Assembly (NCBI GenBank): GCA_001898145.1
Contig: MKSR01000019.1
Location: 62,001-126,000 of the forward strand
From: Dyadobacter sp. 50-39
GTDB lineage: Bacteria; Bacteroidota; Bacteroidia; Cytophagales; Spirosomataceae
Direction of reading: 5' to 3'
DNA length: 64,000 nt
How positions within the stretch are numbered: the stretch's first letter is position 1; each line of letters opens with the position of its first letter. The notes under the pieces were generated by a model, which had not been told where the DNA came from, made no database searches, and saw only the letters and a program-made list of their open reading frames with translations. Below are positions 7,128 to 62,366 of the stretch, one piece after another. Both the position numbers and the translations under genes were made by a program.

Positions 7128-8732
7128 ATGGAAACTTTAATCTACATCGGCAAGGTTAGCCTCTACTGGGTGTTGCTGTACGGCTGTTACTGGCTGATGC
7201 TCCGGAAAAACACGTTCTTCCAATGGAACCGCTGGTACCTGATCGGCTCGCTGCTCGTCGCATTTGTATTGCCCGAGATCATCTACCCCGCTTCCGCGCC
7301 TGAACTGCCGGTGATATACGAAGTAAATGCTTCTACTTTCGCGGTGATCAAGGCGAAGCCGGAAGAACCGCAAGCCTGGACGTGGCTGCAAATCCTGACC
7401 TGCGCCTACCTGGTGGGACTGGCCGTAGCCGCCACCCAGTTGGCCCGGAACATCGCCCAGCTGGTGAAATACCTGCGGTCTGGCGAGCTTGTGGAACTGG
7501 ACGATTGCAATGTAATACTGATCGATTCCAATCAGGTAGGTTCTTTTTCATTCCTGAAATGGATCGTCATCAACCGCAACGACTATGAAAACCACTTCGA
7601 CGCCATCCTACGGCACGAAATGGTGCATACCCAGCAACGGCACAGCCTCGACATTCTTCTTATTGAAATCATACGGACCGTTTTCTGGTTCAATCCGGTG
7701 TTGCTGCTGTACAAGCGGTCGCTGCAGGAAATTCACGAGTACCTGGCCGATGCGCAAGCCCCGAACCGTGAGTATTATGCCCAATTCCTCGTCGCGTATG
7801 CGCTGAATGCGCCCGTCGCGTCGCTGACCAATCACTTTTTCAAACCATCTCAGTTAAAAAACCGTATTCAGATGATTTATAAGAATCGCACATCCAAATG
7901 GATGCTGGGCACCTACGTGGTAGCCGCAACGCTGATCGGAACCAGCGCATTGTTTGTCGCCGGCTGCGAGAGTCAGGTTTCAAAGGAAAATGATGCCCCG
8001 AAAACGGACGTCCGTACCGAAGGCTCTACGCCAATTTTCACGGTAGTGGAAGAGCAACCAGAGTTTCCCGGCGGTAATGAAGAAATGTTCAAGTTTCTGG
8101 GCCGAAAAATCAAGTACCCAACAGCCGCCTTCAAGGCTGATGTCCAGGGAAAAGTGTTCGTCAGTTTCGTGGTGAGCTCGGAGGGTGACATCAAGGATGT
8201 AACAGTTCTGAAAGGTATTGGCCACGGTTGTGACGAAGAAGCCGCCCGCGTGGTGTCAAGCTTCCCGAAATGGACTCCCGGGAAGCAGAATGGGAAAGCT
8301 GTGAACGTGAGATATACGATTCCTATCAACTTTGAGCTAGCAGAGGAAGGGGATGAGGCCACTACCCGGAAAGAGCCCACAGTTGCCGGTTTCAAAAAAT
8401 CAGTCGCCCAGACATTCAAAGCGCAGCCAGTTGCGCAACAGAGCAATAACGAGGTACCACTGCTTGCCGAAACTTTTGAGGGAAGAACCGACCTTACAGT
8501 AGGCGACCGGTCCGACAGCAAAATAGTTTTTCGCGACGCACCTGATCCAATTGCACTTGAAAATCAGCCGCTCTACATATTAGATGGCGAAATAATGGAG
8601 AGCGGCTTTGCACCAAATACCATCAAACCCAATACCATTAAGAGTGTAAGTGTGTTGAAAGGCCCGGATGCCTCGAAAATCTATGGCTCAAAAGGTGTGA
8701 ATGGTGTCGTTTCCATAGAAACCAAAAGGTAG
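7128..8732 (+). CDS. BlaR1-like M56 membrane metallopeptidase with TonB C-terminal domain and plug-like tail
   Basis: The N-terminal half is a BlaR1/MecR1 peptidase: membrane helices near 5-25, 35-55 and 85-107, zinc motif HEMVH at 163-167, the third ligand candidate in HEYLAD (Glu204), and a further helix near 258-280. The periplasmic part carries a TonB_C domain (about 302-405, PEFPGG start). The last 65 residues resemble a TonB-receptor plug segment (LYILDGE, then IKSVSVLKGPDASKIYGSKG). Such fusions are common in Bacteroidota, and their ligands are unknown. There is no penicillin-binding sensor domain. It lies between blaI and a paralogue, all same strand with short gaps, so it is the probable signal transducer for the repressor. 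Confidence 0.9.
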   Translation: METLIYIGKVSLYWVLLYGCYWLMLRKNTFFQWNRWYLIGSLLVAFVLPEIIYPASAPELPVIYEVNASTFAVIKAKPEEPQAWTWLQILTCAYLVGLAVAATQLARNIAQLVKYLRSGELVELDDCNVILIDSNQVGSFSFLKWIVINRNDYENHFDAILRHEMVHTQQRHSLDILLIEIIRTVFWFNPVLLLYKRSLQEIHEYLADAQAPNREYYAQFLVAYALNAPVASLTNHFFKPSQLKNRIQMIYKNRTSKWMLGTYVVAATLIGTSALFVAGCESQVSKENDAPKTDVRTEGSTPIFTVVEEQPEFPGGNEEMFKFLGRKIKYPTAAFKADVQGKVFVSFVVSSEGDIKDVTVLKGIGHGCDEEAARVVSSFPKWTPGKQNGKAVNVRYTIPINFELAEEGDEATTRKEPTVAGFKKSVAQTFKAQPVAQQSNNEVPLLAETFEGRTDLTVGDRSDSKIVFRDAPDPIALENQPLYILDGEIMESGFAPNTIKPNTIKSVSVLKGPDASKIYGSKGVNGVVSIETKR

Positions 8733-8756
8733 ATAACATTATATAACCTGTCCCGC

Positions 8757-10580
8757 ATGGAAACGCTCCTCTATCTGGCAAAAGTCAATGCATACTGGCT
8801 CCTTTTCTACGGTTGCTACTGGCTTTTGCTTCGAAAGCATACCTTCTTTCACTGGAACCGCATTTACCTGCTGGGGACATTGCTGATTGCGTTTGCATTG
8901 CCTGCGATCCATTTTGCCGAACCGATCAAGACTTTTTACGTGCCGGAAACGGTATACCAGAAAGCCACCATTTCGGTAGCCGTCATCGCCGGCGAGGCAC
9001 CGGAAACAGGTATGAACCCCTGGATTTGGATCGCTTGCATTTACATCCCGGTGGTACTGGCATTGAGCTGGAATTTCATTTCCGGACTCGTCAGGCTCTT
9101 CGCGATCGTTCGCCGGAGCGAAACGATAGGTATGGGCAACTACACGTTGGTGATGATGCCTCAAAATGGCCCTGGCAAAAGTGGAAGCTCGTTTTCTTTC
9201 TTCCGCTGGCTGTTTCTAAGCCCGCAGGATTACCGCCATAATCCCGACGCAATCATCCGGCACGAATATGAGCACATCCGGCAACGGCACACGGTGGATA
9301 TTCTTGTGATAGAACTTTTGAAAATCTGCTTTTGGTTTAACCCCATCCTCTGGCTGTACAAGCGCTCCATTGAAACCGTTCACGAGTACCTGGCCGACCA
9401 ACCGGTTCCTAATCGGAATGACTATGCTTCGTTTTTGGTCGCGTATGCTTTGCGCAGTCCTGATATTGCCGTTGCCAATCACTTTTTCAATGCATCATTA
9501 TTAAAAAACCGGATAGAAATGATTTACAGAAAACGCAGTTCACGGTGGCTACTGACACGCTATGCGCTGGTCCTGCCGGTTTTGGCATGCTCCATGGCCA
9601 TTTCGGCCTCGCGGTCGCCATTGCCTTCCATCAGCGGAATTGCCTCTGCACGGGATATCCTAGTGCGTGGCAATGTAACGGACGAGAACAAAGAGCCGGT
9701 TGCGGATGCGATCGTGATCATCGCCGGGACCACTCGGGGCACAACCACCGACCGGAACGGCTGGTTTGAGTTGGACAATGTTCCTGCAAATTCCAAACTG
9801 GTGGTCACGCACATTGCCTATCAGCCATTCGAAATAACCGTCGAGAGGGCCCAGACAGAGATCCTGATCGTTATGAAAAAGGCAGTAAACCAGATCACAG
9901 GACCAGTAGTGGTCGGTAAGCCGGTAAGCGCCGGAACCGTTGCGCCCATTACTTCTCCCCCAACCGGCGAAAACAGCGGAATGAAGGTCGTCGAGCAGCT
10001 GCCTGAATTTCCGGGCGGCAGGGAGGCCCTGATGCAATACCTGATGCAAAACCTGCAATACCCGGAAACCGCTCGCAAAATCAACGTGGAAGCCATCGCG
10101 CTGGTCTCTTTTACCGTGGATAAGGACGGAAAGATCCGCAATGCGAAAAGCCTGAAAAACATTGGCTACGGAATAGACAACGAAGCGCTGCGGGTGGTGA
10201 ACGAAATGCCGAAATGGAACCCGGCCGTGCAAAACGGCAAACCGGTTGAAACGGAATATACTTTGGAAGTGAATTTTAAAATTGATAAAAACGAACAGGA
10301 CAAGCGGCAGGGGTTTCTGAATTTTGGCACCAAAAACCTCCTTCCTACTCCTACCATGGAGGAAATCGGTTCATTCCTCAACGGAACGCTCAACTTGTCC
10401 AAGTCCGGAAGGATCCCGGACATTGCCTATGGTGCGTCATGGAATCTGCTTCCGAGAATACCGTCGATGAATACGACCGACGAAGAGCAGGGCAGCGAAC
10501 ACCGATACCTCAATTACAGCGATTCAAACCTGAAAATTAAAAAGGAGGCATGGAAGTATCAAAAACCAATTGAGCCCTGA
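8757..10580 (+). CDS. Second BlaR1-like M56 metallopeptidase with carboxypeptidase-like and TonB domains
   Basis: Paralogue of the preceding gene: both start METL and share the YWLLLRKHTFFHWNR first loop, the zinc motif (HEYEH at 169-173) and HEYLAD (Glu210). Here the periplasmic part has a carboxypeptidase-regulatory-like beta-sandwich (about 302-377, VRGNVTDENKEPVADA start), then a TonB_C domain (about 412-510, PEFPGG start), then a low-similarity tail to residue 607. It begins 24 bases after its neighbour and is the last gene of the blaI operon. Two sensors with one repressor suggests either two inputs or recent duplication with domain swapping in the periplasmic part. Confidence 0.9.
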   Translation: METLLYLAKVNAYWLLFYGCYWLLLRKHTFFHWNRIYLLGTLLIAFALPAIHFAEPIKTFYVPETVYQKATISVAVIAGEAPETGMNPWIWIACIYIPVVLALSWNFISGLVRLFAIVRRSETIGMGNYTLVMMPQNGPGKSGSSFSFFRWLFLSPQDYRHNPDAIIRHEYEHIRQRHTVDILVIELLKICFWFNPILWLYKRSIETVHEYLADQPVPNRNDYASFLVAYALRSPDIAVANHFFNASLLKNRIEMIYRKRSSRWLLTRYALVLPVLACSMAISASRSPLPSISGIASARDILVRGNVTDENKEPVADAIVIIAGTTRGTTTDRNGWFELDNVPANSKLVVTHIAYQPFEITVERAQTEILIVMKKAVNQITGPVVVGKPVSAGTVAPITSPPTGENSGMKVVEQLPEFPGGREALMQYLMQNLQYPETARKINVEAIALVSFTVDKDGKIRNAKSLKNIGYGIDNEALRVVNEMPKWNPAVQNGKPVETEYTLEVNFKIDKNEQDKRQGFLNFGTKNLLPTPTMEEIGSFLNGTLNLSKSGRIPDIAYGASWNLLPRIPSMNTTDEEQGSEHRYLNYSDSNLKIKKEAWKYQKPIEP

Positions 10581-11739: not shown

Positions 11740-12132
11740 CTATTTAGCCGTAGCCATTACCATCTTGATATCGTTCTTAGCGCCAATTTCGAGCACGTCT
11801 ACAAGGTCCTGCACGGCAAGGTTCTTATCTACGCGTAAAACAACCGTGCGCTCTTCGACACCTGCGAAAATGCTTTGCAGCTGCGTTTCCAGGTTGTCAA
11901 AAGGAATAGGCTCCTTATCAATGAAATAGGCCTTATTCTCGTCCACTGACAATGTGATCTGCTTTTTGTACATCTGCTGGGTCGCCGAGGCTTTGGGCAG
12001 CATCAGTTTGATCACGTTCGGATTCGACATCGTCGAGATGATCAAAAAGAACAACAGCAGGAAGAACATGATATCGTTGAGCGAGTGCGTGAACACCTCC
12101 GGGGCAAACCGGCTCTTCCGACGTATTTTCAT
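11740..12132 (-). CDS. exbD: ExbD/TolR-family biopolymer transport protein
   Basis: A 130-residue inner-membrane protein with one N-terminal helix (about 19-37, DIMFFLLLFFLIIST). The Asp at the start of that helix (SLNDIMFF) is the conserved proton-path residue of ExbD/TolR. The periplasmic part ends in the family's DLVDVLEIGAKNDIKMVMATAK pattern. With ExbB it turns proton flow into force on TonB or TolA. It is encoded 56 bases downstream of exbB on the same strand. No tonB or second exbD is adjacent. TolR is the alternative assignment. Confidence 0.93.
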   Translation of the reverse strand: MKIRRKSRFAPEVFTHSLNDIMFFLLLFFLIISTMSNPNVIKLMLPKASATQQMYKKQITLSVDENKAYFIDKEPIPFDNLETQLQSIFAGVEERTVVLRVDKNLAVQDLVDVLEIGAKNDIKMVMATAK

Positions 12133-12188: not shown

Positions 12189-12869
12189 CTATTTTGCGGC
12201 AACAGGCTTTTGAAGTACATCCAGAAAATCGGACGCCGCCATTTGCAGGCGCAGCGCGAAACGGTCGATTTTCATGTTCAGCAAGTGGTAACCCGCATAG
12301 GCGATCAGACCGATGATCAGACCGGAACCGGAAGTGATCATTTTTTCATACATACCACCTGCGATTGTACTGATATTGAAGTCGTTGGAAATTGAAATGT
12401 CGTAGAAAATACGGATGATACCGGAAATCGTACCTACGAACCCGAGCATCGGCGCGATACCCGCAATTACCCCCAGATAGGGCAGGTTACCTTCCATCCG
12501 CTGGATCTCGATCTGGCTGGCGTTTTCAATTGTTGTTTCAATGTCTTTGATCGGATAACCGATGCGGCCGATCGCTCTCTCCAAAATGCGCCCTGCGGCG
12601 TTACGCTGGTTTCTGCATAGCGACTCGGCAGATTTCAAATTTCCCTGCTGAATAAAATCTTTTACATTATCCACAAATTGCGGTTCAATCTTACCATTAG
12701 CGCCGATACCGAGGAAACGCTCGATGATCAGGAACAATGTGGCGAGGAACAACAATCCGAGTGGCAACATTACCCACCCCCCTTTGGCGAGCAGATCAAT
12801 TACAGAAAGGCCCTGCTCAGCGACGGGTGCAGCCGCAGTAGAGTCAGTAAGTGCTTGCAGAAGCATCAT
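12189..12869 (-). CDS. exbB: MotA/TolQ/ExbB proton channel protein
   Basis: The 226-residue protein shows an N-terminal periplasmic extension, a first helix near 30-55 (GGWVMLPLGLLFLATLFLIIE), a cytoplasmic loop, and two helices in the conserved C-terminal channel region (LGVIAGIAPMLGFVGTISGIIRIF and the GSGLIIGLIAYAGYHLL segment). The ending ALRLQMAASDFLDVLQKPVAAK is typical. It powers TonB-dependent uptake across the outer membrane, and this window alone encodes two TonB receptors. It starts at the ATG at 12869, with a second ATG one codon later. Confidence 0.95.
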   Translation of the reverse strand: MMLLQALTDSTAAAPVAEQGLSVIDLLAKGGWVMLPLGLLFLATLFLIIERFLGIGANGKIEPQFVDNVKDFIQQGNLKSAESLCRNQRNAAGRILERAIGRIGYPIKDIETTIENASQIEIQRMEGNLPYLGVIAGIAPMLGFVGTISGIIRIFYDISISNDFNISTIAGGMYEKMITSGSGLIIGLIAYAGYHLLNMKIDRFALRLQMAASDFLDVLQKPVAAK

Positions 12870-13633: not shown

Positions 13634-13713
13634 CTTTTAATGGTTGAAATCAGGTGCTTCTTTAAATAGCGATTATCCTGCGGCTGATGACCTGTTTTAT
13701 CACAGTTCATGAT

Positions 13714-13776: not shown

Positions 13777-14160
13777 GTGAAACAATGGATATCCGTCAGC
13801 CTGCTTGGCCTTATACTGGTCAAAGTATGGGTGATTCCTTTGTTGTACCTGGATTTCGAGATCAGGCGCGAATACATTGTCGCGAATCTTTGCGAAAACA
13901 AAAACCGGCCGCAGATGCATTGCGACGGGAAATGCTACCTCGCCAAACGCATTGCTTCGCTAGACGAACAGGAAAAACGCCAGGCCGAAAAAACATACAT
14001 CTCGCGGCTGATCGACCAGGTCATGGACCAGCGTGCCGATTTCTCCTTTACACGGCAGGCCATCGTGGTGCAACTCCCGCCCAGGGTGGTTTTCTCGCTT
14101 ACTTCCTGCTTCACACCCCGTATCCCGGTGGACGATATTTTTCATCCTCCGCTCGTTTGA
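13777..14160 (+). CDS. Small membrane-anchored protein with a C-x11-HCDGKC motif (paralogue 1)
   Basis: I do not know a named function. The protein has one N-terminal hydrophobic helix (about 4-24), then the motif REYIVANLCENKNRP followed by HCDGKCYLAK, a charged helical stretch, and a C-terminal tail. The same motif is in the gene at 16382-16759, and aligning the two puts the start at GTG 13777 rather than ATG 13687. The three Cys and one His spaced as C-x11-H-C-x3-C suggest metal binding or redox activity; this is inference. It lies 119 bases upstream of mbnP and heads the first half of the metal-uptake locus. The Cys residues would sit outside the cytoplasm if the helix is an uncleaved signal. 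Confidence 0.7.
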   Translation: MKQWISVSLLGLILVKVWVIPLLYLDFEIRREYIVANLCENKNRPQMHCDGKCYLAKRIASLDEQEKRQAEKTYISRLIDQVMDQRADFSFTRQAIVVQLPPRVVFSLTSCFTPRIPVDDIFHPPLV

Positions 14161-14279
14161 TTTAGCATAAAATCACCCCATTTGCAGTTCTTGCATTAGT
14201 CAGGACAAATTCTGTTTGCAATTTTTGTCGGCTCTGAGGCCCTGTCACGGGGCGTGGACTCATATTTTATCCAATACAC

Positions 14280-15104
14280 ATGATGAAAAGAACATTTTCA
14301 TGGCTGTCGGCGTGGGCGCTTGCCTCGGGGTTGCTGATGGTTTCATGCTCTTTCCCGGACGAAAAAGACGATACCGATCCGATTGAAACCGGTACCATTG
14401 AGCTGCAATTCGATAATATCGTGGGCAGCCAGGATTTGCAGCTCGACAACGCCCGGTATAGCAATGCGGCCGGCGAAGATTTTACCGTCAGCAAGCTGAA
14501 CTACTACATCTCGAATATCAAACTCCTAAAAATGGACGGCAGTGCATTTACCGTCCCGCAGGATTCGAGCTATTTCATGATACGTGAGGCGCATCCCGAA
14601 TCCCAAAAGCTCACGCTCCGCAATGTGCTGACGGGCGACTACACGGGCGTGGAGTTCATGGTAGGTGTGGATAGTGTGCGCAGTGTGATGGAACCCGACC
14701 GGCGGAAGGGTATTCTCGACCAGTACAGCGGCCCTACCAACGAAGAAGGTATGTACTGGGATTGGAACCCGGGCTACATTTTTTTGATGCTGGAAGGTCA
14801 TTCCGATCTGGCCACTACGGCAAATGGCAAATACTATTATCATATCGGGGGTTTTGGCGGCAGGACTACACGGACGATCAACAATCTTAAAACCGTTAAA
14901 CTGACTTTCCCGGGGCAGAAGGCGATTGTAACCACGAGCATTGTTTCCAACGTGCTTATCCAGGCCGATATCCTGAAAATTTTCAACGGCCAGACGCAGA
15001 TGAGCATTCAAAAGAACTCCTCCCTGATGTTTGCAGACTCATCGAAGTATATCGCCGACAACTACGCCGGCATGTTCAGCGTCAAGGAAATAAAAATGAA
15101 CTAG
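14280..15104 (+). CDS. mbnP: MbnP-like periplasmic copper-binding lipoprotein
   Basis: A 274-residue protein with a lipoprotein signal (LMVSC, Cys23). The family signature GMYWDWNPGYIFLMLEG lies at about 157-173, with Trp160 and Trp162. In the methanobactin-linked MbnP/MbnH pair, the dihaem enzyme MbnH oxidises a Trp of MbnP to kynurenine and so builds a Cu(I) site; that is established for methanotroph proteins and inferred here. Further core strands include LNYYISNIKLL and YYYHIGGFGG. The mbnH-type gene follows 10 bases later, which strongly supports the pairing. No methanobactin genes are nearby, so this is a methanobactin-independent version. Confidence 0.85.
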   Translation: MMKRTFSWLSAWALASGLLMVSCSFPDEKDDTDPIETGTIELQFDNIVGSQDLQLDNARYSNAAGEDFTVSKLNYYISNIKLLKMDGSAFTVPQDSSYFMIREAHPESQKLTLRNVLTGDYTGVEFMVGVDSVRSVMEPDRRKGILDQYSGPTNEEGMYWDWNPGYIFLMLEGHSDLATTANGKYYYHIGGFGGRTTRTINNLKTVKLTFPGQKAIVTTSIVSNVLIQADILKIFNGQTQMSIQKNSSLMFADSSKYIADNYAGMFSVKEIKMN

Positions 15105-15114
15105 CGGAATTGGC

Positions 15115-16248
15115 ATGACAAAGTTTACAGGCATATTGAGCTTATTGGCGGCGCTACTGGCGTTGGCGGTGTCATGCAGGAAGAGCGGCACCGACGATCC
15201 GGACCCCAAGCCGTCGGACAATACGCCTACGCCCTTGCAATGGATGAAACCTTCGTATTTCCCGGATCCTGTCTATGATTTATCCAAAAATCCGCTGACC
15301 GTCGAAGGCGTCGAGCTCGGGAAGTTCCTGTTTTACGATGGTATCCTTTCGAGAACAGACAACATCGGCTGCGGGACGTGCCACCAGCAGCAGGCTGCAT
15401 TCACCCACCACGGCCATGACCTGAGCCACGGCGTGGATGACAAGATCGGCACAAGAAATGCGCCATCGGTACAGAATATGGCCTGGAACACGTCCTTTTT
15501 TTGGGATGGCGGCGTGCATGACCTGGACCTGGTACCGCCGGTGCCCATTCAGAATAAGGTCGAAATGGACGAGCGTGTGAGTAATGTGATTGAAAAGTTG
15601 AAGAAAACGCCGGTAGCCGGTGCTGCCAAGCAGGTGGATTATCCCAAGATGTTCAAAGCGGCATTCGGGAGCGACAGCATTACTGCCGACCGGATGATGA
15701 AGGCGCTGTCACAGTTTATGATGACAATGGTTTCGGCCACTTCAAGGTACGATTATTTCGTACGGGGGGACGCATCCGCGATGACGGCGCAGGAGAAGGA
15801 CGGTATGACGATTTTTAAACAAAAATGCGCTTCATGCCATGCAGGAGAGCTTTTTACGGACCAGAAATTCAGAAATAACGGGTTGGTACCGAACCGCATC
15901 AACGATCAGGGCAGGTATGACATTACTTTGAATGCCGACGACCGGCTGAAATTTAAAGTACCAAGCCTCCGCAACGTCGGACTCACGGCACCTTACATGC
16001 ACGACGGCCGCTTTACAACGCTGGAACAGGTCCTGGATCATTACGCGAACGACAAGCCCGGCAATAAAGACAGCATTTACGTTTCCCCGACACTGGACCC
16101 GCTGCTGAATGTTGCAGGCCAAAGACGAGGGATCAGCCTGACAAGTGCAGAAAAGCAATCGATCATTGCGTTTCTGAAAGCATTGAACGATGACGATTTT
16201 ATCAAAGACAAACGATTCTCGGATCCTGGTGTAGGGACATCGTTCTAG
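15115..16248 (+). CDS. mbnH: MbnH-like dihaem cytochrome c peroxidase/MauG family lipoprotein
   Basis: A 377-residue dihaem protein with a lipoprotein signal (LAVSC, Cys21) and two c-type haem sites: CGTCH at 86-90 and CASCH at 238-242. The domain layout and the C-terminal FKVPSLRNVGLTAPYMHDGRF segment are those of the bacterial CcP/MauG family. Members use hydrogen peroxide either to detoxify it or, in MauG and MbnH, to oxidise a Trp in a partner protein. The adjacent MbnP-like gene makes MbnH the best assignment. A plain peroxidase cannot be excluded, because the sixth-ligand residue cannot be judged by eye. It is followed by a GC-rich palindromic repeat. Confidence 0.87.
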   Translation: MTKFTGILSLLAALLALAVSCRKSGTDDPDPKPSDNTPTPLQWMKPSYFPDPVYDLSKNPLTVEGVELGKFLFYDGILSRTDNIGCGTCHQQQAAFTHHGHDLSHGVDDKIGTRNAPSVQNMAWNTSFFWDGGVHDLDLVPPVPIQNKVEMDERVSNVIEKLKKTPVAGAAKQVDYPKMFKAAFGSDSITADRMMKALSQFMMTMVSATSRYDYFVRGDASAMTAQEKDGMTIFKQKCASCHAGELFTDQKFRNNGLVPNRINDQGRYDITLNADDRLKFKVPSLRNVGLTAPYMHDGRFTTLEQVLDHYANDKPGNKDSIYVSPTLDPLLNVAGQRRGISLTSAEKQSIIAFLKALNDDDFIKDKRFSDPGVGTSF

Positions 16249-16250
16249 AG

Positions 16251-16377
16251 TACTTCGGCTGTCGGCTATCGGCAGTCGAACCTTTTGTATTAATTAAACA
16301 AACAACCGAAAGCCAAAGTAAAAAAAGCCGATTGCCGACAGCCGATTGCCGAAGTAAGGAAGCCGACAGCCGAAGTA
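16251..16377. repeat. GC-rich palindromic repeat element between mbnH and the second HCDGKC gene
   Basis: The ends form a perfect 17-bp inverted repeat: TACTTCGGCTGTCGGCT at 16251-16267 and AGCCGACAGCCGAAGTA at 16361-16377. Inside the right half the unit AGCCGATTGCCGA occurs twice (16326-16338 and 16341-16353), and the left half holds GTCGGCTATCGGC. The middle is AT-rich. A related element lies at 53494-53616. It may act as a terminator or mRNA stabiliser between the two operon halves; this is inference. Confidence 0.85.
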
Positions 16378-16381
16378 AAAT

Positions 16382-16759
16382 ATGCGCTCCATTATAGCCT
16401 ACATACTGCTTGCAGCTATTATGCTACCCACGCTCAGCCCGTGGGGAACGATCGCGTATTTCAAACTGAACCGGGAATACATCGCCAAGGTGCTGTGCGA
16501 AAACCGGAAACGGCCCGAGCTGCATTGCGACGGCAAGTGCTACCTTGCCAAGAAGCTCAAACAGCAGCAGGAAAAGCAAGACAAGGAGACTTCCGACCAG
16601 GTACACAACACGCCCGTTATCCAGCTTTTCATACCACAATCCTACACTTACAATTTTGAACCGGAATCCATCTCATTCCGCGAACCGGTTCGTTTCTTCC
16701 ACCAGTTGCTTTTCTACGCCGCGCCCGTCGGCAAACTGCTTCGGCCGCCCAGGAGCTAA
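16382..16759 (+). CDS. Small membrane-anchored protein with a C-x11-HCDGKC motif (paralogue 2)
   Basis: A 125-residue paralogue of the protein at 13777. It has an N-terminal hydrophobic helix (MRSIIAYILLAAIMLPTL), then REYIAKVLCENRKRP and HCDGKCYLAKKL, then a Gln/Lys-rich stretch and a Phe-rich tail. The conserved block is nearly identical between the two, while the C-terminal halves differ fully, so the Cys/His motif is the functional core. Function is unknown; exported metal or redox protein is inferred from the motif and from the TonB receptor 44 bases downstream. It heads the second half of the locus. Confidence 0.75.
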   Translation: MRSIIAYILLAAIMLPTLSPWGTIAYFKLNREYIAKVLCENRKRPELHCDGKCYLAKKLKQQQEKQDKETSDQVHNTPVIQLFIPQSYTYNFEPESISFREPVRFFHQLLFYAAPVGKLLRPPRS

Positions 16760-16803
16760 AATTCATGTTACCTAACTGAATTTTAATCTCTTAAAGCATT
16801 ATA

Positions 16804-19149
16804 ATGAACCTGAAAATATTTTTACAGGCACTTTTCCTGTATGTATGCGCGCACGCGGTTGCCGCGCAGGGCATCGAAGGCAGCGTGTTTGATACCCAGA
16901 CAAAAGAACCGATCCCCGGAGCGACGGTTCAGATCATTTCTGGCAACATTGGCACTACCACCGACAATAACGGCCATTTTGCATTCAGCAGCCCCATTTC
17001 CAACGCGATTCTCCGCATTTCCAGCATCGGTTTTTCTGCCAAAGAAATCCAGATCGAGAACGGGAAAAGCATTAAAGTAGGGCTCGACGCGGCTACCGAA
17101 AACCTACAATCGGTGGTAGTTACCGGCAACCGTGAGGCAACATTGCGCACTGAGAGCCCTATCGCCATTTCCAAACTGACGCCGCGGATGATCGACGAGG
17201 CCAAACCGACGGCCATGTACGAGATCGTGAATAAGGTACCGGGTGTGATGATGGTAAACCTGGGCAATGAGCAGCACTCGATGGCCATCCGCCAGCCGTT
17301 TACGACCAATGCCTATTTCCTGTACATGGAAGACGGCGTGCCGATCCGGCCGATGGGCGTTTTTAACCACAATTCCATTCTCGAATTCAACCAGTTTGCG
17401 ATCAGCTCGGTGGAAGTGGTGAAAGGGCCTGTGTCATCGATCTACGGCCCGGAAGCGGTGGGCGGCGCGATTAACTTCATCACGCAGCGGCCTACCATCC
17501 TGCCTACCGCCAAAATAGGCGTGCAGGCCGACCAATGGGGCTACAAACGCATTCAGTATGGTGCGGGCGGCATGATCGGAAAATTTGGCGTGTACGTGGG
17601 CGGCTTCGTCGCAAACCAGCGCGACGCATGGATGAAAAGCTCCGACTATGACAAGAATGCCATCAATGCACGGCTGGAATACCACTTCACGCCTTCCACG
17701 CGCCTGATTTACACCCTGGCTTACAGCAAATATGATTCACAAACGAGCGGCAGCGTGGACAGCCTTGCATTTTACTCCCGTCAATATGTAAGCACCACCG
17801 ATTTTACCTACCGCAAAGTGAGCTCGCTGCGCAGCAGGCTAACGCTAGAAAAAGACTGGAAAAATGGTTCGCAGACATTTGTGACCGCATTTGCAAGAAA
17901 AAATGAGCACGGCCAAAATCCGAATTACGGAATTAGATGGACATCCGGCCAGACTACCGCGAAAGGAGAAATCAATTCGAGCGATTTCAAAAGCCTGGGT
18001 ATACTCGCGCAGCACAGTCAACGGTTCAGTTTCCTTAATTCCAAACTGATCGCCGGTACGGTTTTCGACTTCTCGCCATCCAACTATTGGTCATACCAGG
18101 TCGATCTGGCGGCGCAGTTGCGGCCGGACAAGAAGTCGGTGGAAAAATACACGATTGTAAAGGAGCGCCCGGACATTCAAAACGCGAACTACGACGCCGA
18201 TATCAAAAATACAGCGGCCTATGCGCAGTATGATTTCGAGCCGCTGCCCAAAATGCGCGTCTCTGCCGGCCTGCGTTACGACCGGATGTCTTTTACCTAC
18301 ACCAACTTTCTCGACAACACTTCGGGCAGCAAATCGTACAGCAAAGTGACGCCGAAAATCGGTGCTACCTACGATTTGGGCAAAGGAAAAGGCATTTATG
18401 CCAATTATTCGAGGGGCTTCTCGCCTCCGGGGCTTACTTCGGTCTTCCGCAAACGGACCGTGCCTGCCGACAATGGTGATTTGTTTTACTACAACCTGAA
18501 ACCGGCTGAGTTTAACAACGCGGAAATCGGCGGCTGGGCATCTGTCCTTGACAATAAGGTATACATCGACCTGGCCTTCTACCAGATGAATGGCCGCAAC
18601 GAACTGCTGAACGTGCGGCTGCCCGATAACTCCTACGATTACCAGTCGGCCGGCAAGACCTTGCACCGGGGCGCAGAGTTTGGCGTGACCTACAAGCCGA
18701 CGAAGGAATTTTTCTTCCGGTTTGGCGGAACTACGGCCATTCACAGGTACGAAGAGTTCATCCTAAGCAACCGCGAGTCCGATGCGGTCAGGAACGTAAA
18801 TGGCAAGGATATGCCGTCTTCTCCGCGCTGGCTTTGGAATACCGAGTTCAGTTATTATCCCAAATGGTTTAAAAACTTTCGATCGTCGGTGGAATGGCAG
18901 CACGTGGCTTCCTACTATCAAAATCAGATCAATACCGTCCAATACGAGGGGTACGACATCGTGAACCTGAGGCTCGGATATAATTGGAAGGGCATTGAGC
19001 TGTTCACCAATATACTGAACCTTACCGATGTGCTCTACGCTACCAATGCCACGCGCGGCAACAATGCCACCGACCGCACCACTTACAACGCAGCGGCTCC
19101 AAGGACATTCGTTTTCGGCGTACAATACACTTTCACGGGCAAAAAATAA
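16804..19149 (+). CDS. TonB-dependent outer-membrane receptor, probable metal or metallophore importer
   Basis: A 781-residue receptor: signal peptide (about 1-21), carboxypeptidase-like domain (about 23-105, GIEGSVFDTQTKEPIPGA), plug (about 115-235, including YMEDGVPIRP and VVKGPVSSIYGPEAVGGAINF), then a 22-strand barrel ending in aromatic residues (FVFGVQYTF). It imports a ligand with energy from ExbB-ExbD-TonB. The ligand is not readable. The PepSY gene 6 bases downstream and the MbnP/MbnH genes upstream point to copper or a ferric or cupric chelate. Extracellular loops contain no obvious His or Met clusters. SusC is excluded because there is no SusD partner and the length is too short. 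Confidence 0.92.
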   Translation: MNLKIFLQALFLYVCAHAVAAQGIEGSVFDTQTKEPIPGATVQIISGNIGTTTDNNGHFAFSSPISNAILRISSIGFSAKEIQIENGKSIKVGLDAATENLQSVVVTGNREATLRTESPIAISKLTPRMIDEAKPTAMYEIVNKVPGVMMVNLGNEQHSMAIRQPFTTNAYFLYMEDGVPIRPMGVFNHNSILEFNQFAISSVEVVKGPVSSIYGPEAVGGAINFITQRPTILPTAKIGVQADQWGYKRIQYGAGGMIGKFGVYVGGFVANQRDAWMKSSDYDKNAINARLEYHFTPSTRLIYTLAYSKYDSQTSGSVDSLAFYSRQYVSTTDFTYRKVSSLRSRLTLEKDWKNGSQTFVTAFARKNEHGQNPNYGIRWTSGQTTAKGEINSSDFKSLGILAQHSQRFSFLNSKLIAGTVFDFSPSNYWSYQVDLAAQLRPDKKSVEKYTIVKERPDIQNANYDADIKNTAAYAQYDFEPLPKMRVSAGLRYDRMSFTYTNFLDNTSGSKSYSKVTPKIGATYDLGKGKGIYANYSRGFSPPGLTSVFRKRTVPADNGDLFYYNLKPAEFNNAEIGGWASVLDNKVYIDLAFYQMNGRNELLNVRLPDNSYDYQSAGKTLHRGAEFGVTYKPTKEFFFRFGGTTAIHRYEEFILSNRESDAVRNVNGKDMPSSPRWLWNTEFSYYPKWFKNFRSSVEWQHVASYYQNQINTVQYEGYDIVNLRLGYNWKGIELFTNILNLTDVLYATNATRGNNATDRTTYNAAAPRTFVFGVQYTFTGKK

Positions 19150-19155
19150 CAGGTT

Positions 19156-20691
19156 ATGATCGAGGAAATTGCCATTCAATCCAAAGAGACATTCAAGGCA
19201 AAGGCCGAAAAGACCATCCGCAGGAACATTTATCGCTGGCACCGCATATTGGGATTGCTGGCGATCGTGCCTACCATTTTCTGGACCGCATCGGGCGTCA
19301 TGCACCCGTTCATGTCGCATTGGTTCAAAACGACCATTGCACATGAATTTTACAAGGCAGAACCAGTGGCCCCCGCGGAGGTCACGATACAGCTGGGGCA
19401 GGTTTTAACCCAAAACAAAATCACCGAATTCAAGAACTTCCGGCTGATCAAGTTCGAGGGAAATGCATGGTACCAGGTGAAAGGCGTGGATGACAAGCTG
19501 CGGTATTTCAGCACTGCCACAGGCGCGGAACTACCCGACGGCGACCGCAGATATGCCGAGCAAATGGCGCGTTACATGCTCGGCGAGCCGAAATCGAAAA
19601 TCATTTCCAGCACATTACTGACCGAGTTCACCGACCAGTATAAATATGTGAACCGCTTTTTGCCTGTCTGGAAAATCAGCTTCGACGACGACCGGAAAAT
19701 GGATATCTATGTTGAAACCGGCCAAAGCCGCTTCGCCACATTCAATGATAGTGGCCGTAAAGCGTTCATATGGGTGTTCAGCACGTTTCATAATTGGGGT
19801 TTTATGGATATGATCACCAACAATACGATCCGCATCGTGGTCATGGTGACGTTCCTTAGCCTGATCATTCTTTCGGCGGCGGCCGGCTTGCTGGTGTACG
19901 GGTTGATGTGGAAGAAGTTTAAAACCGGCCGGTCGGGCAACCAGCGTGGCGCGCTGCGCAAGTACCACCGGTCAATCGGCATCTGGTGCAGCATCTTCAC
20001 ATTCACATTCGCATTCTCGGGTGCCTACCACGCCGTTCAAAAGCTCGATCCCGACCAGCGCCAGAAATATGTGTACGACCCGGTGATTAAAACCGGCGAG
20101 ATCGCCCAGGCTTCAGTGATCGACCTCAAAGGGGTGACCAACATCGGGCTGATCAAATGGGGCGAGAGTATTTTCTGGCAAACTGTCCGCAAAGATTGGG
20201 AAACAGACAAAACAGTGGTGGATTACACCGATATCCGAGATGGTAAAAAGCTGGAAGACGGTAATATCCGCTTTGCCAAATACCTGGCGCGCAAGTTCGC
20301 CGCGCAGGAGGAACGCAATGCCGAAAGCTGCTGCGACCTGATGGAAGCGCAGATTTCATCGCCCATTTCGGATGCGGAAGTCGAGAAAGCTTCGCTGGTA
20401 ACGAGTTTCGCCGGGGAATATGGCTTTGTAAACAAAAGGCTTCCCGTGGTAAAACTGGCTTATGACACGCCCGACCACACGACCTACTACATTGAAACCA
20501 CCACCAGCCGCCTGTCCACGAAAGTCGAGGACCGTAACCGCCGGGAAGGTTTCAGCTTCGCATTTCTGCACAAATACAGCGGCCTGGATTTCCTGGGCAA
20601 GAACGCACGCGACGGCGTGATGACGGCTGCGGCTGCGAGTGTTTTGGTAGTAAGTGTGCTGGGATTGCTCGTGTTTTTGAAGATTAAATAA
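19156..20691 (+). CDS. PepSY-associated transmembrane protein (putative metallo-reductase)
   Basis: The 511-residue protein has four main membrane helices: near 32-54 (ILGLLAIVPTIFWTASGVMHPF), 235-258, 276-298 and 487-509. Two large periplasmic PepSY regions lie between them, carrying the repeated YIETxxSRxS/AT pattern (YVETGQSRFATFND and YIETTTSRLSTKVED). Proteins of this family accompany siderophore receptors and in some cases reduce or release the imported metal. His residues in helices (YRWHRILG, KYHRSIGIW, LHKYSGL) could bind haem. An unusual ESCCDLME stretch lies in the second periplasmic loop. It starts 6 bases after the receptor and is probably translationally coupled to it. Confidence 0.87.
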   Translation: MIEEIAIQSKETFKAKAEKTIRRNIYRWHRILGLLAIVPTIFWTASGVMHPFMSHWFKTTIAHEFYKAEPVAPAEVTIQLGQVLTQNKITEFKNFRLIKFEGNAWYQVKGVDDKLRYFSTATGAELPDGDRRYAEQMARYMLGEPKSKIISSTLLTEFTDQYKYVNRFLPVWKISFDDDRKMDIYVETGQSRFATFNDSGRKAFIWVFSTFHNWGFMDMITNNTIRIVVMVTFLSLIILSAAAGLLVYGLMWKKFKTGRSGNQRGALRKYHRSIGIWCSIFTFTFAFSGAYHAVQKLDPDQRQKYVYDPVIKTGEIAQASVIDLKGVTNIGLIKWGESIFWQTVRKDWETDKTVVDYTDIRDGKKLEDGNIRFAKYLARKFAAQEERNAESCCDLMEAQISSPISDAEVEKASLVTSFAGEYGFVNKRLPVVKLAYDTPDHTTYYIETTTSRLSTKVEDRNRREGFSFAFLHKYSGLDFLGKNARDGVMTAAAASVLVVSVLGLLVFLKIK

Positions 20692-20802
20692 ATGGTGCGC
20701 CTTTCACGAACTCACCTATTAAACCTTCATTAAAACCAAGGATTTTTGCGATCCGCGTTGTTTCTTTGCAGGAAATTCAGTCGCAGACAATACAATAACT
20801 AT

Positions 20803-21132
20803 ATGCAAAGCGGAGAAAAGAATGCACAGCCCTGGTTGGGCAAAATGCAGGAAAAATGGGGATTGGAAACAACCAGGCAGGTTTTATTGGTACTCGCGGT
20901 GTTCAGTTTGTCGGGTTCTTCGGTAGTGTGGCTCCGCAAAGGGCTGTTTTACCTGCTCGGCTATGACGACGCTACGCCGATGTGGCTTAAAACCATTACC
21001 TACATTCTGTTCATCTTCCCGACCTACCAGAGCTTGCTGTTACTGTACGGATTTCTGCTGGGACAGTTCTCGTTTTTCTGGGAAAAGGAAAAGAAAATGT
21101 TCCGCTGGATCGCCGCCAAGTTCAAAAAGTAG
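20803..21132 (+). CDS. DUF6787-like small membrane protein
   Basis: About 109 residues from the ATG at 20803: a charged N-terminus, two hydrophobic helices (TTRQVLLVLAVFSLSGSSVVWL and TITYILFIFPTYQSLLLLYGFLLG), and a basic tail rich in aromatics (FFWEKEKKMFRWIAAKFKK). I recognise the pattern as DUF6787, a Bacteroidota family of unknown function. A longer reading from 20746 overlaps a -7-like TTTCTTTG at 20761-20768, so the downstream ATG is preferred. It is not obviously linked to either neighbouring operon. Confidence 0.75.
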   Translation: MQSGEKNAQPWLGKMQEKWGLETTRQVLLVLAVFSLSGSSVVWLRKGLFYLLGYDDATPMWLKTITYILFIFPTYQSLLLLYGFLLGQFSFFWEKEKKMFRWIAAKFKK

Positions 21133-21162: not shown

Positions 21163-21196
21163 GAGGAGTACGGGAGGTAACCTTCCTGTACTCCTC
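21163..21196 (+). terminator. Terminator upstream of ffh
   Basis: The stem is GAGGAGTACGGGAGG with CCTTCCTGTACTCCTC, of which nine outer pairs are perfect; the loop is short and an AT-rich tail follows. It ends the DUF6787 message. Confidence 0.75.
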
Positions 21197-61844: not shown

Positions 61845-62366
61845 ATGGCTGCTCAAAATAAATGCGTATTCCTCGACCGTGACGGAGTACTGAACGAGGA
61901 TTGCCCCGATTATCTGTACAAGCTGGAAGAATTGGTGATTCCGGAAGGTGTAGCCGAAGCATTGCGCATACTCAAAGATGCCGGCTATCTGCTGATCGTG
62001 ATCACCAACCAGGCGGGTATCGCCAAAGGGCTGTACACCGCTGATAACGTGTACGCTATCCACGAAGCCATGCAGGAAGTTTCGGATAACGCGCTCGACG
62101 ACCTGTATTTCTCACCTTACCATCCGGCCTATTCGGGCAACTCATTGTCACGAAAACCTGGTTCACTGTTAATTGAGAAAGCAATGGCCAAATACGCTAT
62201 CGATCCCGCGCAATCGTGGATGATCGGCGACCGGGACAGGGATATGGAAGCGGGAAAGAATGTGGGTTTGAAAACGGTTCATATCATCCCGAATGCAGAA
62301 GAATCGACGGGAGATTATGCCGCTGTGAATTTGCTGGAAGCCGCCAGGCTGATATTGCAGCAGTAA
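61845..62366 (+). CDS. gmhB: D,D-heptose 1,7-bisphosphate phosphatase (HAD-IIIA)
   Basis: 173 residues from the ATG at 61845. HAD motifs: CVFLDRDGVLNEDCPDY (nucleophile and acid Asp), LIVITNQAGIAKGLY, and SWMIGDRDRDMEAGKNVG. It dephosphorylates heptose 1,7-bisphosphate in the pathway to ADP-heptose for lipopolysaccharide. The upstream ATG at 61803 would overlap hemE and adds no conserved residue. It starts 2 bases after the hemE stop, so the two are cotranscribed. Histidinol phosphatase-like relatives are the alternative. Confidence 0.93.
   Translation: MAAQNKCVFLDRDGVLNEDCPDYLYKLEELVIPEGVAEALRILKDAGYLLIVITNQAGIAKGLYTADNVYAIHEAMQEVSDNALDDLYFSPYHPAYSGNSLSRKPGSLLIEKAMAKYAIDPAQSWMIGDRDRDMEAGKNVGLKTVHIIPNAEESTGDYAAVNLLEAARLILQQ

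Follow-up and report, generated by a model that had tools for sequence, protein, structure and literature searches.

Two gene sets that follow each other on one strand, each opened by a copy of the same small protein, raise a question: what does this protein do, and do the two sets belong to one system? The arrangement is found in Dyadobacter sp. 50-39 (Bacteroidota; GenBank assembly GCA_001898145.1, contig MKSR01000019.1), in a stretch of 64,000 nucleotides (positions 62,001 to 126,000 of the contig), which we call the window. An earlier interpretation made from the letters alone (the sequence-only reading) had placed six genes of a metal-uptake locus on one strand; open reading frames and Pfam searches confirmed all six and their order on the plus strand: HC1, MbnP, MbnH, HC2, TonB-dependent receptor and PepSY_TM protein. 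Here, 'HC' is a working name for a previously unnamed family of small proteins that opens both halves. We consider it probable, with reservations given below, that the locus represents a pair of neighbouring operons for copper acquisition, that each of them is controlled by an HC leader of its own, and that HC acts as a nascent-chain copper sensor. The features concerned, in window coordinates, are the following.

13777..14160, plus strand: HC1, a small protein with an N-terminal membrane-length helix, the CENKNRPQMHCDGKC block and the C-terminal residues DIFHPPLV; candidate copper-sensing leader for the operon with MbnP/MbnH
13891..13935, plus strand: Cys block of HC1, Cx9CxGxC; putative copper-binding sensor
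14140..14151, plus strand: FHPP codons near the C-terminus of HC1; putative arrest site
14280..15104, plus strand: MbnP (PF20243), with WDW and a lipoprotein-like start
15115..16248, plus strand: MbnH-type di-haem enzyme (CCP_MauG), with two CxxCH and a lipoprotein-like start
16254..16280, plus strand: terminator-like hairpin of 12 pairs with a T-rich tail, built from a dispersed GCCGACAGCCGAT-type repeat
16382..16759, plus strand: HC2, paralogue of HC1, with CENRKRPELHCDGKC and the C-terminal residues KLLRPPRS; candidate copper-sensing leader for the operon with receptor and PepSY_TM
16496..16540, plus strand: Cys block of HC2, Cx9CxGxC
16739..16750, plus strand: LRPP codons near the C-terminus of HC2; putative arrest site
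16804..19149, plus strand: TonB-dependent receptor (PF00593, Plug, CarbopepD_reg_2)
19156..20691, plus strand: PepSY_TM membrane protein (PF03929); putative periplasmic copper reductase, by analogy with CrpH

The motif shared by the two small paralogues had been noticed before, and a pattern search of the genome confirmed the duplication with one correction: the common block is C-x8-HCDGKC, not C-x11-HCDGKC as had been written. The degenerate DNA pattern of the motif was found three times in the 7.7 Mb genome, always in paralogous proteins, and the reversed control pattern was not found at all; thus, the shared motif is not a matter of chance. HC1 starts with GTG; an in-frame ATG is also present at 13687. 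The His preceding the second Cys is not a hallmark of the family: of 252 relatives, 129 have it, but 249 have PP at the C-terminus. In 99 aligned HC members, only C39, C49, G51, C53 and the pair P122-P123 were invariant, with I34, N41, P45 and K57 reaching at least 90% around the Cys block.

A profile built from 34 HC proteins was run against 392 genomes drawn evenly from Bacteroidota. It matched 153 genomes; 150 places in 109 of them, those among the matches listed, are the basis of all figures per 150 HC genes given here and below. In all 150 listed proteins PP stood at most 9 residues from the C-terminus; the residue at position −2 to PP was F in 115 and the one at −1 was H or R in 108, with the full pattern [IV]F[HR]PP present in 56. 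The distance from the last Cys to PP (70 residues in HC1, 68 in HC2) varied among the 150 from 61 to 73 residues, with median 66 and standard deviation (SD) 2.1, and no column of this spacer was conserved at 90%. As a control, the emptiest segments of equal length in other families had SD of 5.1 (MbnP), 2.7 (MbnH), 2.4 (SCO), 2.8 (CDxCGC) and 3.6 (PepSY). An AlphaFold model of HC (mean predicted local distance difference test score, pLDDT, 82.5; predicted template modelling score, pTM, 0.49) has a membrane-length helix at residues 2–29, helices at 31–37 and 52–76 and coil thereafter, with no globular domain. Comparison of HC with solved structures gave nothing convincing, and Pfam searches gave three single chance-level matches among 99 members. 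A text search of the literature for HCDGKC or HCNGKC found no mention of either, though papers or supplements beyond those searched may contain them.

Which genes follow HC? The genome has four HC matches, two of them in the window. The third precedes a receptor and a PepSY_TM gene and has a DUF4198 gene on its other side; the fourth, with VCEGKC at the motif site, stands directly before SCO1. The first eight loci among the listed matches to HC2 belong to Dyadobacter (77–94% identity). A scan of contigs produced 205 HC relatives and 77 retained loci, all of them Bacteroidota by name. In the neighbour census, 145 of the 150 listed HC genes had copper-type or receptor/Mbn neighbours: a TonB receptor was found at most three genes downstream of 80 (with PepSY_TM behind it in 25), an MbnP or MbnH gene at most three genes downstream of 47, and SCO1, YtkA, YHS, HMBD or CDxCGC-type genes adjoined 18 (only upstream in 2). 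The other five fell outside the census classes; in three of these (L183, L168, L126) a same-strand YHS gene or receptor adjoins behind a short opposite-strand open reading frame, at which the census had ended, and in two (L121, L239) no such gene adjoins. Control anchors, which were 641 unlabelled genes of the same regions at least 4 kb off, had a receptor in 10 cases and copper-type genes in 2 (counted downstream only); the control zero for Mbn genes is there by construction, as anchors lay at least 4 kb from Mbn genes, and only the receptor and copper-type counts are informative. The association of HC with both gene sets, which the sequence-only reading had put forward as a check, is therefore very strong throughout the phylum. 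The SCO1, YHS and HMBD domains beside HC genes were confirmed by Pfam in examples, including the SCO1 of this genome, and the median gap between HC and the next same-strand gene was 108 nt (119 nt from HC1 to MbnP, 44 nt from HC2 to the receptor).

HC and MbnP also tend to occur in the same genomes. PF20243 matched 101 of the 392 genomes; both families were present in 72, HC alone in 81, MbnP alone in 29 and neither in 210 (odds ratio 6.4, p 3e-14, related genomes being non-independent). A same-strand HC lay <1 kb upstream of 44 of 125 MbnP places, 3 of which score below the family cut-off. Within the genus, HC and MbnP were each found in 48 of 48 genomes, and 62 of 89 MbnP places had HC <1 kb upstream. 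HC sequences cluster by partner, with 45 label changes for receptor and 35 for Mbn versus shuffled means of 81 and 62; the HC tree, which is built from few columns and leaves many forks unresolved, nevertheless requires no fewer than 32 switches from one kind of partner to the other, Mbn or receptor.

Some further observations were made in these neighbourhoods. Tandem HC-HC pairs were seen in L016, L021, L152 and L172 and in genomes G399, G407, G421 and G433, and in the four loci inspected the pair precedes a receptor. The leading HC of the L021 tandem resembles HC1 of the window, yet MbnP/MbnH are not there, as if the leader had outlived its genes. An exported protein of ∼300 residues with a CD[AI]CGC block near the N-terminus was seen in 61 loci (e.g. 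L179 11041-12000, L186 9915-10880, L081 10489-11400); of its 62 copies, 47 stand after MbnH and 12 after HC. In Pfam one copy matches PF13557 (34 bits) and another has no match; it is possibly an outer-membrane copper protein. A lipoprotein-like protein containing M and H, with a YtkA match below the cut-off, lies between HC and OprC-type receptors (L174 10817-11740, L074 12604-13482) and is a candidate copper binder.

Small leaders with comparable anatomy have been described in Proteobacteria, at the head of similar operons; an example is Bordetella pertussis, where, according to passages of PMC9426467, CruR heads a receptor-PepSY_TM operon; its CXXC is required for copper control and its RAPP, 45 residues away, for expression. 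The CruR-CrtA-CrpH operon, which is on at low copper, thus shares with the second half of our locus a small exported leader, a TonB receptor and a PepSY_TM protein in that order (PMC9426467, PMC12914433, PMC13038864, as far as passages of these papers describe it), and CruR, like HC, combines a Cys motif with PP near the C-terminus, the distance between the two being conserved; CrpH is a functional parallel of the PepSY_TM protein (PMC13038864, in part). CruR relatives were reported in 2022 to head operons with OprC-type receptors, SCO, PCuAC and MbnPH-like genes (passages of PMC9426467). The earlier statement that no system of this composition had been described thus stands only in part: the leader/receptor/PepSY_TM order was known from cruR-crtA-crpH, and DUF2946-headed operons with MbnPH-like genes from the 2022 work. 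What sets HC apart from CruR, as described in those passages, is that it has no DUF2946 match, Cx9CxGxC in place of CXXC, mostly F[HR]PP in place of RAPP, and ∼66 residues between the motifs.

A second parallel is CutF of Rhodobacter capsulatus, proposed to sense periplasmic copper during export (PMC9973294, of which passages are used here and below). CutF and the 'CutF-like' proteins carry an export signal, the putative counterpart of which in HC is the N-terminal membrane-length helix, and HC fits the 'CutF-like' sequence rules: a short protein, CxxxC, PP near the end (≤15 residues) and a same-strand downstream gene. Since HC fits these rules and 19% of the 'CutF-like' list (40% normalised) comes from Bacteroidota, HC may already have been catalogued there (Ozturk 2023), without study; the passages on 'CutF-like' proteins do not name the HC block (PMC9973294). 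CutF, however, switches on copper detoxification at high copper by means of a stem-loop, whereas the targets of HC are uptake genes and no hairpin excess was seen. Passages of two surveys are also relevant. The 2025 survey of RAPP/RGPP leaders reported copper-related leaders in many lineages, with Bacteroidota an exception, and TonB-related leaders throughout Gram-negatives (PMC12992588); the 2024 survey dealt with leaders that precede Sec and YidC genes, some of them from Bacteroidota and with proline at the end (PMC10987492).

From the observed anatomy and neighbourhoods of HC we infer a mechanism of four steps. The N-terminal helix would bring HC to the membrane for translation; with the ribosome at PP, the Cys block ∼66 residues back would be outside the ribosome and, for a chain threaded into the Sec channel, would face the periplasm. 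By the count of the CutF authors, in which the ribosome tunnel takes up ∼30 residues and the membrane 17 (passages of PMC9973294), the block would stand ∼19 residues beyond the membrane. Without copper, the ribosome would stall at PP and the downstream genes would be kept on, either by a block of termination or by opening of the next start. Copper bound to the Cys block would release the stall and turn the operon off; uptake genes would be expected to respond with this sign, and it is also the sign that has been proposed for CruR. The receptor would import copper, free or chelated, which the PepSY_TM protein would reduce in the periplasm, and MbnH would oxidise a Trp of MbnP, giving a high-affinity copper-binding lipoprotein.

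Alternatively, HC could itself be a working protein, as the sequence-only reading had it when it took these proteins for metal or redox partners: a membrane-anchored periplasmic copper chaperone or redox partner that binds Cu(I) through three Cys and sometimes the His, and hands copper to MbnP or SCO1, or takes it over from the receptor. SCO1 and MbnP are indeed among HC neighbours, and the three invariant Cys with the four flanking residues I34, N41, P45 and K57 (≥90% in 99 members) do look like a real binding site. On the other hand, PP is better conserved than the His; the stretch of ∼66 residues from the block to PP is variable in sequence and nearly constant in length; the predicted model lacks a globular fold; and a diffusible function would not need a separate HC copy per operon, repeated within one locus. 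Moreover, the analogous DUF2946 proteins CruR and CutF were reported, in the passages cited above, as short-lived or rapidly degraded sensors. We regard the chaperone as rather unlikely; anatomy and operon position fit leaders of the CruR/CutF type better, and a regulatory role of HC seems likelier than that of a partner.

More broadly, Bacteroidota may control their copper uptake throughout the phylum by HC proteins that sense copper as nascent chains anchored in the membrane. These proteins show no recognisable relationship to DUF2946; they would arrest translation at a PP motif of a new type (most commonly F[HR]PP), their spacer would be of sufficient length for sensing in the periplasm, and they would gate at least three kinds of targets: a third candidate receptor class (see below), OprC-type receptors and the MbnP/MbnH pair. 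This wider proposal is tentative, and we see it as finely balanced between holding and failing.

Several results weigh against a sensing leader. The DUF2946 profile (PF11162) matched none of the 99 HC members at E≤0.01, and in a search of this genome none of the four HC genes; the kinship of HC with CruR and CutF may therefore be analogy only. The C-terminal motif is neither RAPP/RGPP nor uniform (HC2 ends in LLRPP), and the spacing from Cys to PP is 66 residues versus 45 in both CruR and CutF. Segments with more conserved columns in the control families had in some cases SD of 1.1–2.1; as such segments reach comparable values, the constancy of the HC spacer is real but not extreme. The partner changes counted on the tree would be expected of a generic sensor, but equally of a generic chaperone. 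Nor is HC always visibly the first gene, as in 28 of 149 cases it lay <50 nt behind a same-strand gene. Hairpins after HC stops were no more frequent than in controls (85/194 versus 83/194; fold z-scores, p 0.49), and for this reason the AT-rich hairpin after HC2 was set aside as evidence. In a simulation, a stalled ribosome gave no clear freeing of the next start, with a mean gain of 0.037 versus 0.018 (p 0.59), although gains >0.1 were commoner, 18% versus 9% (160 cases each). A Rho site, sought as an excess of C over G in HC genes, was rejected, the excess being gone at fourfold-degenerate positions (104/239 higher, p 0.07).

Is copper the metal? In 63 relatives of the receptor, M150, H158, M160, H189, H404, H621, H647 and M670 are conserved at 98–100%. 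For H158 and M160 the value of 100% is to some extent circular, since these two residues were used to choose the 63 rows out of 76; NEQHxM is also present in 4 of the 13 rows left out. Apart from these eight and the start Met, no His, Met or Cys reaches 80% in the 63 relatives. We propose that this set handles copper; its composition would suggest a soft metal. The structure predicted for the window receptor (mean pLDDT 85) has an ordinary receptor fold, with PqqU/YncD, FhuA and other receptors as the closest matches at ∼15–20% identity. In the PepSY_TM protein H29, H212 and H271 are invariant among 67 aligned proteins, as expected of haem-bearing reductases, its putative role here. The genome has three matches to haem-copper oxidase subunit I, and hence a demand for copper. 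On the whole, the gene identities and the copper theme of the sequence-only reading were supported.

Two anchors for copper lie outside the window: the HC-SCO1 pair of this genome and the OprC-type receptors behind HC elsewhere both point to this metal. The copper site of OprC is CxxxM-HxM (passages of PMC8610252). Among HC-linked receptors 43 of 135 have the CxxxM, all 43 with HxM 120–260 residues further on, and alignment of one such receptor to OprC placed both halves of the site; thus receptors like OprC/NosA, as far as passages of PMC8610252 describe these, stand behind HC genes in other Bacteroidota. PepSY-linked receptors have CxxxM in 0 of 60 and HxM in the matching span in 0 of 60. 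The window receptor is of this PepSY-linked type, without the CxxxM-HxM site and on a different branch from OprC. Judged by its residues, it appears to represent a third class of candidate copper receptor (MxxxxxxxHxM...H set), apparently new; it is set apart from CrtA by description, as CrtA orthologues were reported in passages of PMC12914433 to have two conserved His and no conserved Cys or Met, whereas the window type has conserved Met and several His.

One could argue that the locus serves another metal or the uptake of iron-siderophores. Among named proteins the receptor comes closest to siderophore and PQQ receptors, known PepSY_TM enzymes are ferrisiderophore reductases, and the third HC copy of the genome adjoins a DUF4198 gene. 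We find this quite improbable: elsewhere HC precedes receptors with the OprC copper site and SCO1, HMBD and YHS genes, and the conserved His/Met set of the window-type receptor would again suit a soft metal.

In the first half of the locus, MbnP matches PF20243 with 171.4 bits versus a cut-off of 27, and the WDW signature given by the sequence-only reading was verified at residues 160–162; WxW was present in 105 of 107 MbnP proteins examined. The genome holds one MbnP, for which a single-sequence search against solved structures gave no match. MbnH matches CCP_MauG with 178 bits and has, as had been read, two haem motifs, with CxxCH at residues 86 and 238; its best solved structure is 6e1c, 'Di-heme enzyme', which we take to be the methanotroph MbnH. 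In a methanotroph MbnP and MbnH form a kynurenine copper site, MbnH oxidising a Trp of MbnP. The window pair scores under the cut-offs of the methanotroph equivalogs (48.6 versus the required 140 for equivalog TIGR04052, 229.5 versus the required 362.85 for TIGR04039), has one Cys only and is headed by HC; it resembles the methanotroph pair, as presented in passages of PMC3621798, in that a MauG-like enzyme with two haems adjoins a lipoprotein-like PF20243 protein carrying WxW. The same paper had in 2013 already drawn attention to MbnP/MbnH pairs that are not part of methanobactin operons, among them some close to TonB receptors; its passages contain no copper data for MbnP relatives (PMC3621798). 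Copper uptake without methanobactin, which the sequence-only reading inferred, is a possibility here: the genome does encode, outside the locus, one DUF692-type protein (PF05114; G000:C40:1025087-1025701, L263). Its neighbours are AraC-like and peptidase-like genes, and the 3.6 kb inspected there held no obvious gene for a precursor peptide.

Are the two halves one unit? A terminator-like hairpin begins 5 nt 3′ of the MbnH stop; since it sits between MbnH and HC2, the halves are probably separate transcription units, HC2 opening its own. It should be noted that a scan of 7.8 kb gave 14 terminator-like sites versus 9.9 (SD 4.1) in shuffled sequence, so the hairpin is a pattern match and not proof. 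In the gap between MbnH and HC2 (16255-16373) the GCCGACAGCCGAT-type repeat is present as 4 copies of a 12-mer, one of them mismatched; its 19-base form has 23 genome matches at ≤1 mismatch versus 16 for a reversed-pattern control, which consists of largely the same units.

Both halves could nevertheless form a single integrated six-gene copper machine. Two genomes from a different family within the class (L186, L187) show the order HC-MbnP-MbnH-HC-receptor-PepSY again, with a single gene added, and, judged by position, 13 of 48 genomes of the genus have a second HC 1.0–1.8 kb behind MbnP. In nine named Dyadobacter loci (L007-L014, L028) MbnP-MbnH is followed by receptor-PepSY, with HC labelled upstream of MbnP in eight. 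The terminator-like element, however, splits the halves; HC, Mbn and receptor genes were in one same-strand run in only 22 of the 150 listed survey cases; and L016, L021 and L152 carry HC-HC-receptor with no MbnP/MbnH at that place. As each half is found without the other in many genomes, the two can work independently. We consider the single machine improbable and retain two adjacent operons under separate HC leaders.

The arrangement is real, widespread, coherent and of copper type. Its receptor-PepSY half parallels the Bordetella system described in 2022–2026, and its MbnP/MbnH half the pairs described from 2013; what appears to be new is the HC family heading both, with a probable role of copper-sensing leader and with a different C-terminal motif and a longer spacer. 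Copper import by bacteria is poorly known, and our literature searches found no described regulator of copper uptake for Bacteroidota. The HC family would fill, with a different motif, the gap left for Bacteroidota in the 2025 RAPP/RGPP survey (passages of PMC12992588). If the proposal is true, HC would be a marker gene for copper-uptake operons across the phylum and would add a candidate to the known arrest motifs. It would also allow the idea that a nascent chain senses metal in the periplasm to be put to the test, and would supply classes of receptors for a comparison of metal sites.

Upstream of HC1, on the other strand from the six genes, are the genes of a possible motor:

11740-12132, minus strand: ExbD
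12189-12869, minus strand: ExbB

A Uma2 gene lies between ExbB/ExbD and HC1. By position, ExbB/ExbD are a possible, perhaps dedicated, motor for the receptor. Members of the exbD and exbB families are found again at most 6 kb from HC in Dyadobacter, in 9 and 10 loci, respectively. Further upstream, two window proteins (7128-10580) have a BlaR1-type M56 peptidase domain and a TonB C-terminal domain, one also having a receptor plug domain. Downstream, 3′ of PepSY_TM and on the same strand, is a gene for a DUF6787 protein (20746-21132), whose family occurs in six other Dyadobacter loci; it is followed by a terminator-like hairpin of 15 pairs (21163-21196).

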